Made by a program: the position numbers and the translations under genes. DNA of 64,000 nucleotides. Origin: Stutzerimonas stutzeri. GTDB taxonomy: Bacteria; Pseudomonadota; Gammaproteobacteria; Pseudomonadales; Pseudomonadaceae. Within the stretch, counting starts at the first letter, position 1. Each line of letters starts with the position of its first letter. The DNA lies in NCBI RefSeq assembly GCF_000935215.1, contig NZ_JXXD01000315.1, positions 1 through 64,000 of the forward strand. The letters run 5' to 3'. Positions 53,745 through 60,095 of this stretch are shown here, piece by piece. Below the pieces are notes generated by a model. The model saw only the letters and a list, made by a program, of their open reading frames with translations, was not told the DNA's origin and searched no databases.

Positions 53745-54761
53745 TTAGATCATCTCTTCGCCGCCCTTGGAACCCAGGACGATTTCACCGGCCTCGGCCA
53801 TGCGGCGAGCAATGGTAAGGATTTCCTTCTGCGCATTCTCGACATCGCTGACACGCACCGGGCCCTTCGCCTCCAGGTCGTCACGCAGCAGCTCGCCGGC
53901 GCGCTTGGACATATTCTTGAAGACCTTTTCCTTGATGCCGTCGTCGGCGCCCTTGAGCGCCATCACCAGCACGTCGGAGGATACCTCACGCAGCAGCACC
54001 TGGATGCCACGGTCGTCGACGTCGGCCAGGTTGTCGAAGACGAACATCAGGTCCTCGATCTGGCTGGACAGGTCCTCGTCCACGTCGCGGATCGCATCCA
54101 TCAGCTGGCCTTCGACGGAGCTGTCCAGATAGTTCATGATGTCGGCCGCACGCTTCACGCCGCCCAGGCTGGCGCGGCTGGTGTTGGTGTTCCCGGAGAA
54201 CTGCTTCTCCAGGATCAGGTTCAGTTCCTTCAGCGCGGCCGGCTGGACGGTATTGAGCGAGGACACGCGCAGGACGATGTCCAGGCGTACCTTGTGGTCG
54301 AAATGCGAGAGCACCTCGCCGGCCTGATCAGGGTCGAGATAGGCCACCACGATGGCCTGAATCTGCGGGTGCTCGTAGCGGATCACATCCGCCACGGCGC
54401 GCGGCTCCATCCATTTCAGGCTGTCCAGACCGCTGGTGTTGCCGCCCAGCAGGATACGGTCGATCAGGCCGCCGGCCTTGTCCTCGCCGAGGGCCTGGGT
54501 GAGCATCTTGCGAATGTAGCCATCGGAGCCCACGCCGAGGCTGGTCTGGTCGCCGACGATCTCGACGAACTCGCTCATCACCTGTTCGATCTGCACCTTC
54601 TGCACGTTGCGCATCTGCGCCATGGCAGTACCGACGCGTTGCACCTCTTTCGGACCGAGGTGACGCAGGACCTGCGCCGCGTCGGTTTCACCCAGCGAGA
54701 GCAGCAGGATGGCGGCCTTGTCGACCTTGTTGAGCTTGGCTTGAACTCGATTGTCATTCAT
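53745..54761 (-). CDS. fliG: Flagellar motor switch protein FliG
   Basis: A 338-residue rotor protein: N domain (LSLGETDAAQVLRHLGPKEVQRVGTAM), middle domain with the EHPQ motif (IRYEHPQIQAIVVAYLDP), and C-terminal torque helix with charged residues (MSKRAGELLRDDLEAKGPVRVSDVENAQ). Its ATG overlaps the fliF stop by eight bases. Confidence 0.97.
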   Translation of the reverse strand: MNDNRVQAKLNKVDKAAILLLSLGETDAAQVLRHLGPKEVQRVGTAMAQMRNVQKVQIEQVMSEFVEIVGDQTSLGVGSDGYIRKMLTQALGEDKAGGLIDRILLGGNTSGLDSLKWMEPRAVADVIRYEHPQIQAIVVAYLDPDQAGEVLSHFDHKVRLDIVLRVSSLNTVQPAALKELNLILEKQFSGNTNTSRASLGGVKRAADIMNYLDSSVEGQLMDAIRDVDEDLSSQIEDLMFVFDNLADVDDRGIQVLLREVSSDVLVMALKGADDGIKEKVFKNMSKRAGELLRDDLEAKGPVRVSDVENAQKEILTIARRMAEAGEIVLGSKGGEEMI

Positions 54762-56532
54762 CGGCGTTGATCCACTCTTTCACCACCTGGGCTACCCGTC
54801 CCGGGTCATCGGCCACCAGGTTCTTGATCGCGTTCAGCTGGGCTTCATATCCCTCGCTGGGGCTCGGCAGCAGAATGTTCTGCGGGCCGCTCAGGCTGAC
54901 CCGGTCGCTGGCCAGGCCGGAATCCAGTCCATCATCGCCGCCCAGCTCGCCCGGACCGCTGGCAACCTGCAGCTCCTTGCCGCTGGACGGATTGGTGAGG
55001 CTCTTGAGCACCGGACGCAGCACACCGAACACCAGCACCAGGATGAACAGTACGCCGAGGACCTGCTTGACCACATCCCAGAACCACGGCTGCGAATAGA
55101 ACGGTATCTCTTCGAAGGTCTCCCCTGCGCTGTCGGCGACGAACGCGGTGTTGATCACGCTGACGCTGTCACCGCGGCTGGCATCGAAACCCACCGCGTC
55201 CTGCACCAGGCGGGTGAAGCGCGCCAGATCATCGGCGTTCCACGGTACGCGAACCATCTCGCCGGCCGCATTGAGCGTCATCTGATCGTCGACCACTACC
55301 GCCACCGAGAGCCGGCGCAGGCGACCCTGCTGCTGCTTGGTATAGCTGATCGAGCGATCGAGTTCGTAATTGCGCGTAGCCTGCTCACGCTTGTCGGCCG
55401 GATAGGGCGCAAGCATCGGCTGACCGGTCACGGGGTCCATGACCTGCTGACCATTGGCATCGAGCAGAGGCTGACCAGGAGCCACGGCACCCGCGGCGGC
55501 GGCCTGATTGGCCTGCTCGGGCGCGGTCGCCGGGCCAGGAGGCTGATTGCTCAGGGCGCCCGGCACGCCTTGCGGCGGCAGGCTGCTCTGACGCTGTTCA
55601 TTGACGCTCTGCTCGCTGCGCAGCGCCGGCTGATCGGGGTTGAAGGTTTCCGAGGTGGATTCGACGGCGCTGAAATCCACGTCCGCGGAGACTTCGGCCT
55701 TGTAGCGGCCGCTGCCCAGCACCGGTTGCAGAATGTTGTGCACGCGCTGGGTGTAAAGGCCTTCCATGCGGCGGCTGTAGTCGAACTGCTTGCCGGCCAT
55801 GCTCAGTTCGGTGAGCTCCTGCTGGTCGGAGAGCAGATTGCCCTTCTGATCCACCACGGTGATCTGCGACTTGTTCAGTTCCGGCACGCTGGTCGCAACC
55901 AGGTTGATGATCGCCATCACCTGACTCGGCTCCAGCGCGCGGCCCGGGTAAAGCTCTACCAGTACCGAGGCACTGGGCTTGCGCTCGTCGCGAACGAACA
56001 CCGAACTCTTCGGGATCGCCAGGTGCACACGGGCGCCCTTGACGTTGTTCAGGCTGGAAATGGTGCGGCCCAGTTCGCCCTCGAGGCCACGACGATAGCG
56101 GGTCGCCTCCATGAACTGGCTGGTACCCAGACCCTGTTCCTTGTCGAGGATTTCGAAACCGATGTTGCTGTCCGCCGGCGCGATACCCGCACCGGCGAGC
56201 TTGAGACGTGCACGCGCAAGATCATCCGCCTTGACCAGCAGGGCGCCGGAGTTCGGTTCGACGGTATAGGAGATGTCCGCGGCGGCGAGGGTTTCCATCA
56301 CCTGGTTGGCATCCATCCCCGCCAGGCTGCCGAGCAGCGGGCGGTAATCGGGCTGCTGCGACCAGAGCACCACGGCAAAACCGATCGCCACGCTGGCTGC
56401 CAGCCCGACCAGCAGGCCGACCTGCCGCAGCATGGACATATCCGAAAGGTTTTCCAGGAAGGACAGGCCCAGCAAGGGCTTCTTGATACCCTCGGGAGTA
56501 ACCGGCACCGGAACGTTCACCGCTTCAGCCAT
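54754..56532 (-). CDS. fliF: Flagellar MS-ring protein FliF
   Basis: A 592-residue double-pass membrane protein. Transmembrane helices at about 35-55 and 455-475; ring-building motifs between ([44 protein letters not shown]); C-terminal cytoplasmic FliG-binding tail (LNAIKNLVADDPGRVAQVVKEWINADE). Thirteen bases after fliE. Confidence 0.97.
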   Translation of the reverse strand: MAEAVNVPVPVTPEGIKKPLLGLSFLENLSDMSMLRQVGLLVGLAASVAIGFAVVLWSQQPDYRPLLGSLAGMDANQVMETLAAADISYTVEPNSGALLVKADDLARARLKLAGAGIAPADSNIGFEILDKEQGLGTSQFMEATRYRRGLEGELGRTISSLNNVKGARVHLAIPKSSVFVRDERKPSASVLVELYPGRALEPSQVMAIINLVATSVPELNKSQITVVDQKGNLLSDQQELTELSMAGKQFDYSRRMEGLYTQRVHNILQPVLGSGRYKAEVSADVDFSAVESTSETFNPDQPALRSEQSVNEQRQSSLPPQGVPGALSNQPPGPATAPEQANQAAAAGAVAPGQPLLDANGQQVMDPVTGQPMLAPYPADKREQATRNYELDRSISYTKQQQGRLRRLSVAVVVDDQMTLNAAGEMVRVPWNADDLARFTRLVQDAVGFDASRGDSVSVINTAFVADSAGETFEEIPFYSQPWFWDVVKQVLGVLFILVLVFGVLRPVLKSLTNPSSGKELQVASGPGELGGDDGLDSGLASDRVSLSGPQNILLPSPSEGYEAQLNAIKNLVADDPGRVAQVVKEWINADE

Positions 56533-56545
56533 GATTCAATCCGCC

Positions 56546-56875
56546 TCACACCGGCATCTGCATGATGTCTTGATAAGCCTGAACCAGTTTGTTGCGCACC
56601 TGGGTCATGGCTTGAAAGGAAACGCTGGCCTTCTGGGAGGCGATCATCACTTCGGTCAGGTCGACACCGCCCTGCCCCATCTCGAAGGCAGACGACAGCT
56701 GGCTCGAAACCTGCTGGGTTTCGTGCACTTTATTCACCGCCTGGCCAAGCATGTCGGAAAAGCTCGGAGCGCCGACCTCCTGGGTCTTGACCTCCGGCTT
56801 GGCGCGCGCCATTGCATCGGTCTGCATGGCCCGCATTTCCAGCATCAAGCGATTGAATTGAACACCCTGACTCAT
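56546..56875 (-). CDS. fliE: Flagellar hook-basal body protein FliE
   Basis: A 109-residue rod adapter. The C-terminal half [22 protein letters not shown] and [39 protein letters not shown] is highly conserved in FliE. First gene of fliEFGHIJ; a sigma-54 promoter lies 57 bases upstream. Confidence 0.96.
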
Positions 56876-57120: not shown

Positions 57121-58308
57121 ATGAACCAGATCAGCCGCACCGCCCTGCGCCCCCTGAGCGACAGCTCGCCTTCGACCGTCGTCGCCGGCTTCATCGCCAT
57201 GCTCACCGGCTATACCAGCTCACTGGTGCTGATGTTCCAGGCCGGCCAGGCGGCGGGCCTGAGCGGGCAGCAGATATCCTCCTGGATCTGGGCGCTATCG
57301 ATCGGCATGGCGATCTGCAGCATCGGCCTGTCGCTGCGCTATCGCACGCCGGTGGTGGTCGCCTGGTCGACGCCGGGCGCGGCCCTGCTGATCACCAGCC
57401 TGCCCGGCGTGCCGTATGCCGAGGCGATCGGCGCGTTCATCTTCGCCTCGGCGCTGATCGCCCTGTGCGGCCTGACGGGCAGCTTCGACCGGCTGATGCG
57501 CCGGGTGCCGGCCTCGCTGGCCGCCGCCCTGCTGGCCGGCGTGCTGTTCAATATCGGCAGCGAGATTTTCCGTGCCGTCGAGATTCAGCCGCTGCTGGTG
57601 CTCGGCATGTTCTTCAGCTACCTGCTGGCCAAGCGCCTGCTGCCGCGCTATGCGGTGCTCGCCGCGCTGCTGGTCGGCTGCCTGATCGCCGGGCTGTCGG
57701 GCCTGCTGGATTTCCAGCGCTTCAGCCTGCAGGTCGCGGTGCCGGTGTGGACCACACCGGCGTTTTCCCTCGCAGCGATCTTCAGTATCGGCATCCCGCT
57801 GTTCGTCATCGCCATGGCCTCGCAGAACATGCCGGGACTCGCCGTATTGCGCGCCGAAGGCTACCAGGTACCGGCCTCGCCACTGATCTCCACCACCGGC
57901 ATCGCCTCGGTGCTGCTGGCGCCCTTCGGTTCCCACGGCATCCACCTGGCGGCGATCACCATGGCTATCTGCGCCGGCCCCGAGGCGCACCCCGACCCAC
58001 ACAAGCGCTATACCGCGGCCGTCTGGTGCGGCGTGTTCTACGGCATCGCTGGCATCTTCGGCGCCACCTTGGCAGCGCTGTTCGCAGCCTTCCCGGCGGC
58101 GCTGGTGCTGTCCATCGCGGCGCTGGCGCTGCTCGGCTCGATCGGCTCGGGACTGACCCAGGCGATGCAGCAGCCGCACGAGCGCGAGGCGGCGCTGATC
58201 ACCTTCATGGTCACCGCTTCCGGATTGACGTTGTTCGGTATCGGCGCAGCGCTCTGGGGGCTGATCGCGGGGGCGCTGACGCTGGTGATTCTTAACAAGC
58301 GGGTCTGA
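57121..58308 (+). CDS. benE: Benzoate/H+ symporter family protein (BenE/YdcO)
   Basis: A 395-residue membrane transporter with about 12 hydrophobic segments. Family motifs: YRTPVVVAWSTPGAALL (about 79-95), ASQNMPGLAVLRAEGYQVP and STTGIASVLLAPFGSHGIHLAAITMAICAGPEAHPDP. The family imports aromatic acids in some members; with no benzoate catabolic genes nearby the substrate stays open. No strong ribosome site precedes ATG 57121. Confidence 0.87.
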   Translation: MNQISRTALRPLSDSSPSTVVAGFIAMLTGYTSSLVLMFQAGQAAGLSGQQISSWIWALSIGMAICSIGLSLRYRTPVVVAWSTPGAALLITSLPGVPYAEAIGAFIFASALIALCGLTGSFDRLMRRVPASLAAALLAGVLFNIGSEIFRAVEIQPLLVLGMFFSYLLAKRLLPRYAVLAALLVGCLIAGLSGLLDFQRFSLQVAVPVWTTPAFSLAAIFSIGIPLFVIAMASQNMPGLAVLRAEGYQVPASPLISTTGIASVLLAPFGSHGIHLAAITMAICAGPEAHPDPHKRYTAAVWCGVFYGIAGIFGATLAALFAAFPAALVLSIAALALLGSIGSGLTQAMQQPHEREAALITFMVTASGLTLFGIGAALWGLIAGALTLVILNKRV

Positions 58309-58326
58309 AGCTGGGTAGACAACCGG

Positions 58327-59080
58327 ACTGGCAAGATTGCGTGTTGCTGTCATCCCAGGGTTGTACCTCGGTGATCAGGGCGCTTAGCGAGTGTGCTGAT
58401 ACTTCTGGTTTCGCCCTGCTGGGCGAGTCCCTTTTTCTTGCTTGGCCAAGAAAAAGGAACCAAAAAGAAGGCCACCCGACATCCGGCCCCGGCTGCGCCG
58501 GGGTTCCCTCCTTCCGGTGCCGCTCCGGGGGCCGTCACGAAGGGACGTCCCTGTCCCTTCGTTCCTCGCTCGGCGTCCATGCCTCGCGTCCCCCTGCGCG
58601 ACACCTCCACTCGGCCTCCTGACGGGAACGGAGTCCGAGTCGCCTGGAAGATCGTGGAGATCGAGAATTATTGGTTTTTGCTTTTTGCTCGATGCACAAA
58701 CTATCAGGCGACTCCAAACGCCCCATCAGGAGGGTGAGCGGAATCGTCGCGTAAGGGGTTGAGCCGCAGGGATGCGGCGAAAGGCTTAAAGGGCCATGGA
58801 TGGCCCTTGTAAGCCGACCCCTGGAGCGACGATGGAGCGAAACGGAGCGTAGCGGAGTAACAGCCGCAGGCTGGCCCGAAGGGCGAGCGAAGCAAGTAAC
58901 GAACCCCGGCGCAGCTGGGGCCGGATGCAAGGGGCAAGACTTTTTGGTTCCTTTTGGCGGGGCCGGCCATCCGGGCGACTGCCAAAAGGGACTCGCCCAG
59001 CAGGGCGAAACCAAACTTTCAAGCAACTCGATAAGCGATCATGAAAGCGAAACTTTCATTCAACATCCAATCTTGCCAGT
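58327..59080. repeat. Giant imperfect palindrome (~754 bp), mobile-repeat-like
   Basis: Outer 13-base arms (ACTGGCAAGATTG, 58327-58339, and its complement at 59068-59080), perfect 30-base arms (58406-58435 and 58984-59013), and inner arms down to GAGTCGCCTG (58637-58646) / CAGGCGACTC (58705-58714), with partial matching between, make almost the whole benE-SDR gap one interrupted inverted repeat centred near 58690. Each 30-mer also contains a small hairpin (CGCCC-TGCT-GGGCG). No transposase is present, and the short frames on both strands are by-products of the symmetry. Confidence 0.85.
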
Positions 59081-59116
59081 ACGGTATCAGCAGCCCCCAT
59101 CCCGAACACCGACAAC

Positions 59117-59878
59117 CTAGATCGCCGTCGCCCCGCCATCCACCGCCAGCGCGTGGCCGGTGGTGAAGGCGGCGCCGTCGCTGCACAGGTACAGCACCGC
59201 AGCCGCAATTTCCTCAACCTTGCCGATGCGCCCGACCGGGTGCATCGCGGCAGCGAACTCGGCCTTGCGCGGGTCCGCCTCGTAGGCGCGGCGGAACATG
59301 TCGGTGTCGATCACCGCCGGGCATACCGCATTCACACGAATCTGCTTCTTGGCGTACTCGATCGCCGCCGACTTGGTCAGGCCGATCACCGCATGCTTGG
59401 ATGCCGCGTAGATGCTCATCTTCGGCGCCGCGCCAAGACCTGCGACTGACGCGGTGTTGACGATCGCGCCGCCGCCCTGCGCCAGCATGACCGGCAGCTG
59501 ATGCTTCATGCACAGCCAGACACCCTTGACGTTGACGCCCATGATCGCGTCGAACTCCGCCTCGCTGCCCTCGGCCAGGCGCCCCTGCTCGATCTCGATG
59601 CCGGCGTTGTTGAAGGCGTAATCGAGCCGCCCGTACTGCGCCAGCGTCTGCTCGATGAGCGCCTTGACCTCCGCATCGCGCGTTACGTCGCAGCGCACGG
59701 CGATCGCCTCGCCGCCAGCAGCACGAATGCTTTCTGCGCCATCGCGAATGCCCGCCTCATCGATGTCGGCCAGCACCACCTTGAGACCCTGCTCGGCGAA
59801 CGCCTGCGCCGTGGCGCGACCGATTCCTGCCGCTGCGCCGGTAACCAGGGCAACCTGCCCGGAGAATGTCATGCTCAT
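59117..59878 (-). CDS. Short-chain dehydrogenase/reductase (SDR)
   Basis: A 253-residue classical SDR. Cofactor motif TGAAAGIGRA (about 12-21); Asp at the end of beta-2 (VVLADIDEAG) favours NAD(H). NNAGIE, catalytic Ser in NTASVAG, and YAASKHA with Tyr and Lys are all present, as is C-terminal GHALAVDGGATAI. Substrate unknown. ATG 59878 has GGGAAG seven bases upstream. Divergent from the next oxidoreductase. Confidence 0.9.
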   Translation of the reverse strand: MSMTFSGQVALVTGAAAGIGRATAQAFAEQGLKVVLADIDEAGIRDGAESIRAAGGEAIAVRCDVTRDAEVKALIEQTLAQYGRLDYAFNNAGIEIEQGRLAEGSEAEFDAIMGVNVKGVWLCMKHQLPVMLAQGGGAIVNTASVAGLGAAPKMSIYAASKHAVIGLTKSAAIEYAKKQIRVNAVCPAVIDTDMFRRAYEADPRKAEFAAAMHPVGRIGKVEEIAAAVLYLCSDGAAFTTGHALAVDGGATAI

Positions 59879-60095
59879 GATTGTTCTTCCCGAAGAATTC
59901 GACTCACCTTGCGCCTGCAAAATGACCGCACAAGGCTTCCCGGTCGAACTTATACCGCTATGCGCTCGTGCATTTAACTGCCGTCACGGTCATATCACCG
60001 AACTGGATGCCCTTTCATTCCAGCCTGCTGACGTAGCTTGCAGCGCGGTGCTGGCCGGGCTAAACCAAACCTTTCGCAAACACGAGGTTTATTTC

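Follow-up and report, generated by a model that had tools for sequence, protein, structure and literature searches.

A dispersed near-palindromic repeat beside benE in Stutzerimonas stutzeri with two divergent structured RNA units, candidate ligands of RsmA/CsrA

What fills the gap between benE and a short-chain dehydrogenase (SDR) gene in a 64,000-nucleotide (nt) stretch of Stutzerimonas stutzeri DNA (NZ_JXXD01000315.1, positions 1 to 64,000; hereafter the window)? The gap is a near-palindrome, window positions 58322-59085, and an earlier sequence-only reading had proposed that it was either a non-autonomous repeat or a source of structured RNA. Both parts of that proposal hold: the element is dispersed and carries no recognisable gene, and it has a conserved, covarying fold. 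At roughly even odds (a probability of about 0.5), we propose that it is a copy of a dispersed repeat with two divergent structured RNAs, candidate titrators or recruiters of the global regulator RsmA/CsrA.

The nested inverted repeats of the first reading were recovered by an arm search and by software alignment. Its exact 30-base arms match at 30 of 30 positions (58406-58435 and 58984-59013); the outer arms, given earlier as 13 bases, are present but extend over 25 nt at 88% complementarity (58322-58346 and 59061-59085), and inner arms pair at 79% (58452-58513 and 58894-58955) and 80% (58637-58656 and 58695-58714). The arm pairs centre at ~58676 to ~58710, in keeping with a centre proposed near 58690, and the extent first assigned, 58327-59080, was approximately right, the real ends lying slightly further out. 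Aligned with each other, the halves are identical at 184 of 242 positions over the units and at 243 of 321 over the whole arms, with a unit-to-unit score of 77.7 that is far above shuffled sequence (mean 5.7, maximum 15.7 in 100 shuffles). Each half is one unit of ~250 nt, read outward from the centre: matches to the TwoAYGGAY RNA family (RF01731) lie on the - strand in the left half and on the + strand in the right half, and both units therefore point outward. The halves belong to two diverged subtypes, B on the left and A on the right. A giant hairpin or cruciform of the whole element had also been suggested; what has been conserved is instead the way each half folds locally when it is read outward. 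Long inverted repeats are a known source of misassembly, but read inversion can be ruled out here, since a different genome, G033, carries the locus near-unchanged (811 bp matched at a rounded 100%, 1459 versus 1463 bits). Shorter forms of the element in the same gap at loci L358, L368 and L188 point the same way, and the probability of an assembly artefact is negligible. The parts of the element are as follows.

58322-58346, no strand: left outer arm, forming the inner portion of the terminal inverted repeat, 88% complementary to 59061-59085; the ends of nine further full copies, the G033 orthologue included, align to it
58406-58435, + strand: left exact 30-base arm, containing helix P6, terminator-like if read inward (weak)
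58406-58655, - strand: left RNA unit, subtype B, outward; profile match E 1.5e-61, row L122 of alignment A1
58528-58592, - strand: RF01731 match in the left unit, 39.7 bits
58537-58562, - strand: P3 hairpin of the left unit, loop AGGGAC (inverted-repeat search and fold)
58572-58583, - strand: P2 hairpin of the left unit, loop ATGGAC (sequence and fold)
58656-58695, no strand: AT-rich centre of 40 nt separating the two units; a promoter consensus was searched for and none found
58696-59013, + strand: right RNA unit, subtype A, outward; profile match E 1.9e-62, fold z -4.1
58743-58833, + strand: P1 helix of the right unit (arms 58743-58759 and 58817-58833), enclosing P2 and P3 (inverted repeat and fold)
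58754-58821, + strand: RF01731 match in the right unit, 42.3 bits
58763-58778, + strand: P2 hairpin of the right unit, loop AGGGAT (sequence and fold)
58789-58808, + strand: P3 hairpin of the right unit, loop ATGGAT (sequence and fold)
58839-58897, + strand: 59-nt insertion inside the right unit, itself repeated elsewhere (sequence matches)
58984-59013, - strand: right exact 30-base arm, containing helix P6, terminator-like if read inward (weak)
59061-59085, no strand: right outer arm, forming the inner portion of the terminal inverted repeat (inverted-repeat search)

What has been conserved in these units? In an alignment of 82 outward units (A1), RNAalifold proposed 51 pairs. Compensatory change is seen at 28, and still at 28 when only Watson-Crick types, each in at least two rows, are counted. 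All eight pairs of one P1 helix, homologous to P1 of the right unit, show compensatory changes. On the consensus structure, which is favoured to some degree because it was derived from the same alignment, 97.6% of cells pair, versus 84.8% in shuffled alignments, and 543 cells are doubly changed, versus 159 (standard deviation (sd) 16.5) after shuffling and 17-64 with the partner slid by 1-3 columns. Folded as single sequences, the right unit reaches z -4.1 and the left unit -2.25. The P2 and P3 hairpins end in A-N-GGA-Y loops, which correspond to the CsrA/RsmA consensus. GGA is kept in 81 of 82 rows in P2 and in all 82 in P3, beside a second loop base that may be T, G or A. In five rows the loop is 5 nt long. 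Across 171 near-full-length units we counted 300 ANGGAN hairpins outward and none inward, with 0.04 per unit in shuffles.

The element might nevertheless be a plain miniature inverted-repeat transposable element (MITE), whose hairpins serve DNA transposition or are neutral and which has no RNA function. Dispersal, palindromy, the ISL3-type ends of some copies and the presence or absence of the element at benE would all be expected of such a MITE, and a DNA hairpin would likewise give Watson-Crick covariation. Where the predictions from the two strands agree, at 31 pairs, G-U exceeds A-C by 54 to 9 in outward letters (12 columns versus 4), a weaker wobble count than was first made, and the consensus energy is -67.7 outward versus -40.5 inward, with 51 versus 45 pairs. 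This G-U excess and the stabler outward consensus lend moderate support to selection on outward-strand RNA, and it is on the RNA of that strand that selection probably acts. Compensatory change in every P1 pair, a GGA invariant in both loops beside a free second base, and the fact that other families have the hairpin pair too speak further against the plain MITE. We consider it unlikely, indeed improbable, if less firmly so since a bias in the strand count emerged.

The loops place the units close to a known regulatory system. Targets of CsrA/RsmA are hairpins with GGA in the loop, paired for the dimer, according to passages of PMC4333381 and PMC4383904; TwoAYGGAY is listed in PMC2864571 (2010) among candidate RNAs of no known function and is predicted to bind CsrA in PMC4333381 (2014), again in the passages available. 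Like the Csr/Rsm small RNAs (sRNAs), the element has several GGA hairpin loops of CsrA/RsmA consensus. Each half holds one strict AYGGAY loop and one AGGGAY loop (ATGGAC and AGGGAC on the left, ATGGAT and AGGGAT on the right). Elsewhere in this genome a sister copy reaches 44.2 bits against RF01731, above the cut-off of 43. A CsrA-family gene was present in all 58 genomes examined, and RsmY scored above cut-off in all six that were checked.

Is the divergent arrangement peculiar to this locus? A profile search of 100 loci (100 of the 122 clusters built from 150 listed RF01731 matches) found a divergent pair at 80, a single unit at 20 and a convergent pair at none; some single units lie at contig ends, and because some loci are mutual orthologues the counts are not independent. 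Half-units do therefore exist elsewhere as single copies, as had been predicted, whereas a fresh head-to-head duplication at the benE-SDR site, the accompanying suggestion, does not fit a diverged A/B pair in an arrangement that is the norm. A hairpin-pattern scan of named genomes yielded at least 120 stretches which, among the matches listed, all came from Pseudomonas, Stutzerimonas, Pseudomonadaceae or Gammaproteobacterial metagenome-assembled genomes. Their 123 clusters comprised 63 divergent (59 of the form -+, two --+ and two -++), 57 single and three same-strand arrangements, and no convergent one. Among 75 typed pairs, 43 were A/A, 24 A/B (the type seen here) and eight A/untyped; the units are spaced 32-45 nt apart in 20 of the 24 A/B pairs and 25-389 nt apart in A/A pairs. 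In eight genomes from six other families, chosen for their many matches, RF01731 gave 24 divergent two-hit clusters, one convergent cluster and 89 single matches, the divergent pairs falling in five genomes and three of the six families. The convergent pair, G234:C3:106074-106683, is the sole one seen and could represent two adjacent elements.

The search for further copies that the first reading called for showed the element to be dispersed. An 811-bp query had about ten further matches in its own genome, some limited to short stretches, and, at a threshold of E 1e-6, matched 36 of 37 genomes of the genus and none of 21 that belong to different families of the order; G017 is the genome without a match. 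RF01731 matches occurred in 33 of the 37 genomes, in 187 of 298 genomes sampled across the family, where 14 of 19 genera are represented, and in 24 of 369 genomes drawn from the class, two of the latter from the window's genus; each of these searches gave none in 14 control genomes. The eight genomes of other families chosen for many matches held 6-30 each. Four strains, G017, G006, G008 and G030, had no RF01731 match at E 0.01, yet they carry a CsrA-family gene and appear to be element-poor. A phage or plasmid origin was rejected: no phage matched the element, one plasmid matched in part, over 7% of the query, and none did so with the unit as query. Two IMG/VR viral contigs (L348 and L349) carry the hairpin pattern, for which a prophage flank and phage cargo are both possible.

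At the benE-SDR site itself, two genes flank the element.

57121-58308, + strand: benE (Pfam PF03594, E 1.1e-160)
59117-59920, - strand: SDR gene (Pfam PF13561, E 1.8e-72)

Further out, long open reading frames (ORFs) at 54754-56875 on the - strand presumably represent flagellar fliF and fliE, which their translations resemble. The gap holds six ORFs, none with a Pfam match at E 0.1, and a coding reading was rejected on that ground. We compared 31 orthologous loci, 28 of which have both genes. Sixteen of the 28 gaps measure only 43-48 bp and are mostly one G+C-rich hairpin by eye; two hold an 808-bp element, and shorter forms comprise a pair in L368, a left unit in L358 and a right unit in L188. 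L361 apparently retains just two element ends, and four gaps of 109-122 bp an apparent end remnant; two gaps (74 and 238 bp) hold something else, the latter (L352, in G021) a different, repeat-like sequence. Three loci lack the second gene, and in one of these, L353, the contig ends inside the element. The 59-nt insertion of the right unit has inverted copies (93-97%) at a different point of the element in G021, and part of it has short stand-alone matches elsewhere in G000, G010, G021 and G033.

The G+C-rich hairpin in those 16 gaps raises the question of whether the element acts as a bidirectional terminator or insulator that replaces a native intergenic hairpin at gene ends. Three recent copies adjoin terminator-like hairpins by eye, and inward terminator-like sites are found in the region, weakly (three versus 1.3 expected, sd 1.1). 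Among the 80 paired loci, however, 44 lie between tandem genes, 17 between convergent and 15 between divergent ones, with four uncalled, and the absence of a concentration at convergent gene ends counts against a pure terminator role; this context estimate, based on G+C content at third codon positions (GC3), was validated only on the window's two flanking genes and supersedes a cruder longest-open-frame version. A terminator would also leave the outward fold and the invariant ANGGAY loops unexplained, and it seems to us an improbable account.

How, then, did the copies come to be dispersed? Some full copies have imperfect terminal inverted repeats, as in L080, where 62 aligned positions match at 82%, and of ten full copies aligned at their ends that of the window retains the inner part of the terminal repeat only. 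In the minority of copies with ISL3-type terminal repeats, these match an ISL3 insertion sequence (IS) of a relative over 25-26 nt at 88%. A query with the end sequence gave weak matches (E 0.01-0.04) adjoining seven of seven full-length ISL3-family elements of G010. At the right outer arm of the window, a weak likeness to ISL3-type ends seems by eye to extend beyond 59085, to ~59120. At 94 of the 100 loci there is no ISL3-type end at E 0.01, and conservation of unit loci otherwise ends ~27 nt past helix P6. Among seven complete copies, A/T runs of ~4-8 nt flank both sides in L080, L084, L092 and L106, while a clear target duplication is absent in L022, L088 and L089; by eye, three of the four copies with A/T runs adjoin terminator-like hairpins and one lies inside another copy. 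In L131, L148, L192 and others, a palindrome like CTTCGCGGCCAAGGCCGCTCCCAC, presumably of the repetitive extragenic palindromic (REP) type, is found by eye close outward of the units. The arrangement suggests that units and REP-like palindromes share target sites.

Since most copies have no recognised transposase ends, a conserved structured RNA repeated in the genome could also be part of a mobility machinery, as a guide or scaffold bound by a trans-acting transposase or recombinase in the manner of bridge RNA or omega RNA. The alignment shows no variable guide-like loop, and the ISL3 IS that shares its ends with the element encodes a DDE enzyme, of a type that is not known to use RNA. A role of this kind is highly improbable.

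In conjunction, these analyses lead us to the following model for a repeat that carries divergent RsmA-type RNAs; transcription, RsmA binding, titration and the mode of movement of most copies are what we infer from sequence. Each outward transcript would fold into a long basal helix, P0/P1, bearing the short hairpins P2 and P3, whose A-N-GGA-Y loops would bind dimeric RsmA/CsrA, and one dimer could bridge both. The transcripts may titrate RsmA; alternatively, they may bring it to RNAs whose transcription runs into the element. Since the two units face in opposite directions, read-through from either flank, or a central promoter, would yield a sense unit in any orientation of insertion, which would make that orientation of no consequence. 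A minority of copies, the window's probably included, may have spread in trans by an ISL3-type transposase. A wider form of the model, that widespread, dispersed and orientation-indifferent elements carry divergent pairs of RsmA/CsrA-binding RNAs, that gain and loss of copies resets antagonist dose, and that TwoAYGGAY is the visible core of such elements across Gammaproteobacteria, is possible, and we advance it tentatively.

Several results weigh against this model. Csr/Rsm sRNAs have their own promoter, commonly with a GacA box. Our promoter search, which covered sigma-70 and the GacA box, found no sigma-70 promoter in the window element, and upstream of 123 units the best sigma-70 match averaged 6.99, versus 7.35 in shuffled sequence. 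GacA-box-like matches (at least 9 of 12) occurred at 21 of the 123 units, versus 7-16 in 20 shuffle rounds; 17 of the 21, however, are one hairpin-like repeat (GGTAAGC...GTTACC type) that is no GacA box. The apparent signal thus dissolves into an unrelated recurring repeat, and a promoter of the unit's own with a GacA box was rejected. A transcript made by read-through would also include the antisense of the other unit. The total of GGA per unit is barely above composition (9.2 versus 7.8 shuffled), and both halves miss the RF01731 cut-off of 43 bits (42.3 right, 39.7 left). Outside Pseudomonadaceae, in other families of the Gammaproteobacteria, the second loop often departs from ANGGAN (for example in L380 and L382) and is often AGGAC or ACGAC, which leaves the RsmA reading best supported in Pseudomonadaceae, and no two-hit cluster was found in G085, G101 and G222, three of the eight other-family genomes examined. 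The raw strand count, G-U 220 versus A-C 17, overstates the excess, since prediction of the structure was on the outward strand with wobble allowed; a structure predicted inward shows a G-U excess of its own, 448 versus 64. As to movement, ISL3-type ends were found in just six of the 100 loci at E 0.01 (the window's among them, by its inner part only), the target duplications observed are A/T runs, and the window's own genome has no full ISL3 match, with one distant match to the ISL3 transposase family (E 6e-12). The hairpin-like repeat behind the apparent GacA-box signal, of the type GGTAAGCTTCGCGTTACC, lies upstream of 17 of the 123 units and, in L207, L208, L220 and others, between A/A units.

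It is conceivable that the RNA works in cis, binding RsmA or a different protein that reads GGA, as a module of 3' untranslated or intergenic mRNA that alters the stability or termination of a neighbouring transcript, and not as a free titrator. That no promoter was found in the search, that weak inward-facing terminator-like hairpins stand at both ends, and that units lie beside genes in all orientations would accord with such a module. Fifteen paired loci nevertheless fall between divergent genes, where read-through is not expected, and neighbouring genes were compared at the window's own site only. We hold the cis module to be a minority possibility, though one to be taken seriously.

What would titrating or recruiting RNAs on a dispersed repeat mean? 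TwoAYGGAY forms part of a longer covarying unit that is divergently paired on dispersed repeats and is also scattered in other Gammaproteobacteria, so that extra, repeated copies of a candidate RsmA-type RNA may be present in many bacterial genomes. If these RNAs bind RsmA, genomes hold many more antagonist genes than the textbook RsmX/Y/Z, the number of such genes varies among close relatives, and the tuning of a global regulator would lie in part with DNA that is repeated and sometimes mobile.

The RNA core, the prediction that it binds CsrA, and sRNAs born from MITEs are already known; TwoAYGGAY as a paired, dispersed element is new. In the literature covered, as titles, abstract openings and passages, no dispersed or paired TwoAYGGAY or RsmA-binding repeat is described, and the passages of PMC4333381 and PMC2864571 on TwoAYGGAY make no mention of the longer fold, the repetition or the divergent pairing. 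Like TwoAYGGAY, the units have two neighbouring hairpins, of whose loops one in each half is strictly AYGGAY, and RF01731 matches both halves and many sister copies. Unlike that family, the window halves fall below the cut-off, two of their four loops are AGGGAY, and the window-type unit is longer (P0, P1 and P4-P6), repeated and found in divergent pairs. With the sequestering sRNAs RsmX/Y/Z and CsrB/C the units share repeated GGA hairpins of CsrA/RsmA consensus, and they differ in being dispersed and paired, in several to many copies, with no recognisable promoter or GacA box and with a binding that is only predicted. The ISL3-derived MITEs offer a parallel in that, in a minority of copies, terminal repeats match an ISL3 IS and the insertion sites are A/T runs, and in that the window copy has no Pfam match; such ends, however, are present in six of 100 loci, the payload is conserved and structured, and the outermost end of the window copy is degenerate. 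The REP sequences of Pseudomonas, with the bacterial interspersed mosaic elements (BIMEs) and REP doublets forming hairpins (REPINs), are likewise dispersed intergenic palindromes, and some copies of our element abut a REP-like one. A REP, as described in the abstract of PMC3733652, is a 20-40 bp palindrome with a GTAG or CGTC tag, whereas the present unit, at ~250 nt, differs in sequence and fold and falls outside that definition (judged on length; the tags were not searched). A further parallel is offered by QMITE1 and QMITE2 of Coxiella, MITE families that give rise to sRNAs, at some insertions and from promoter parts at or beside the insert, according to passages of PMC5896051; in the present element, unlike these, the conserved payload is the RNA itself, and it recurs in several families.
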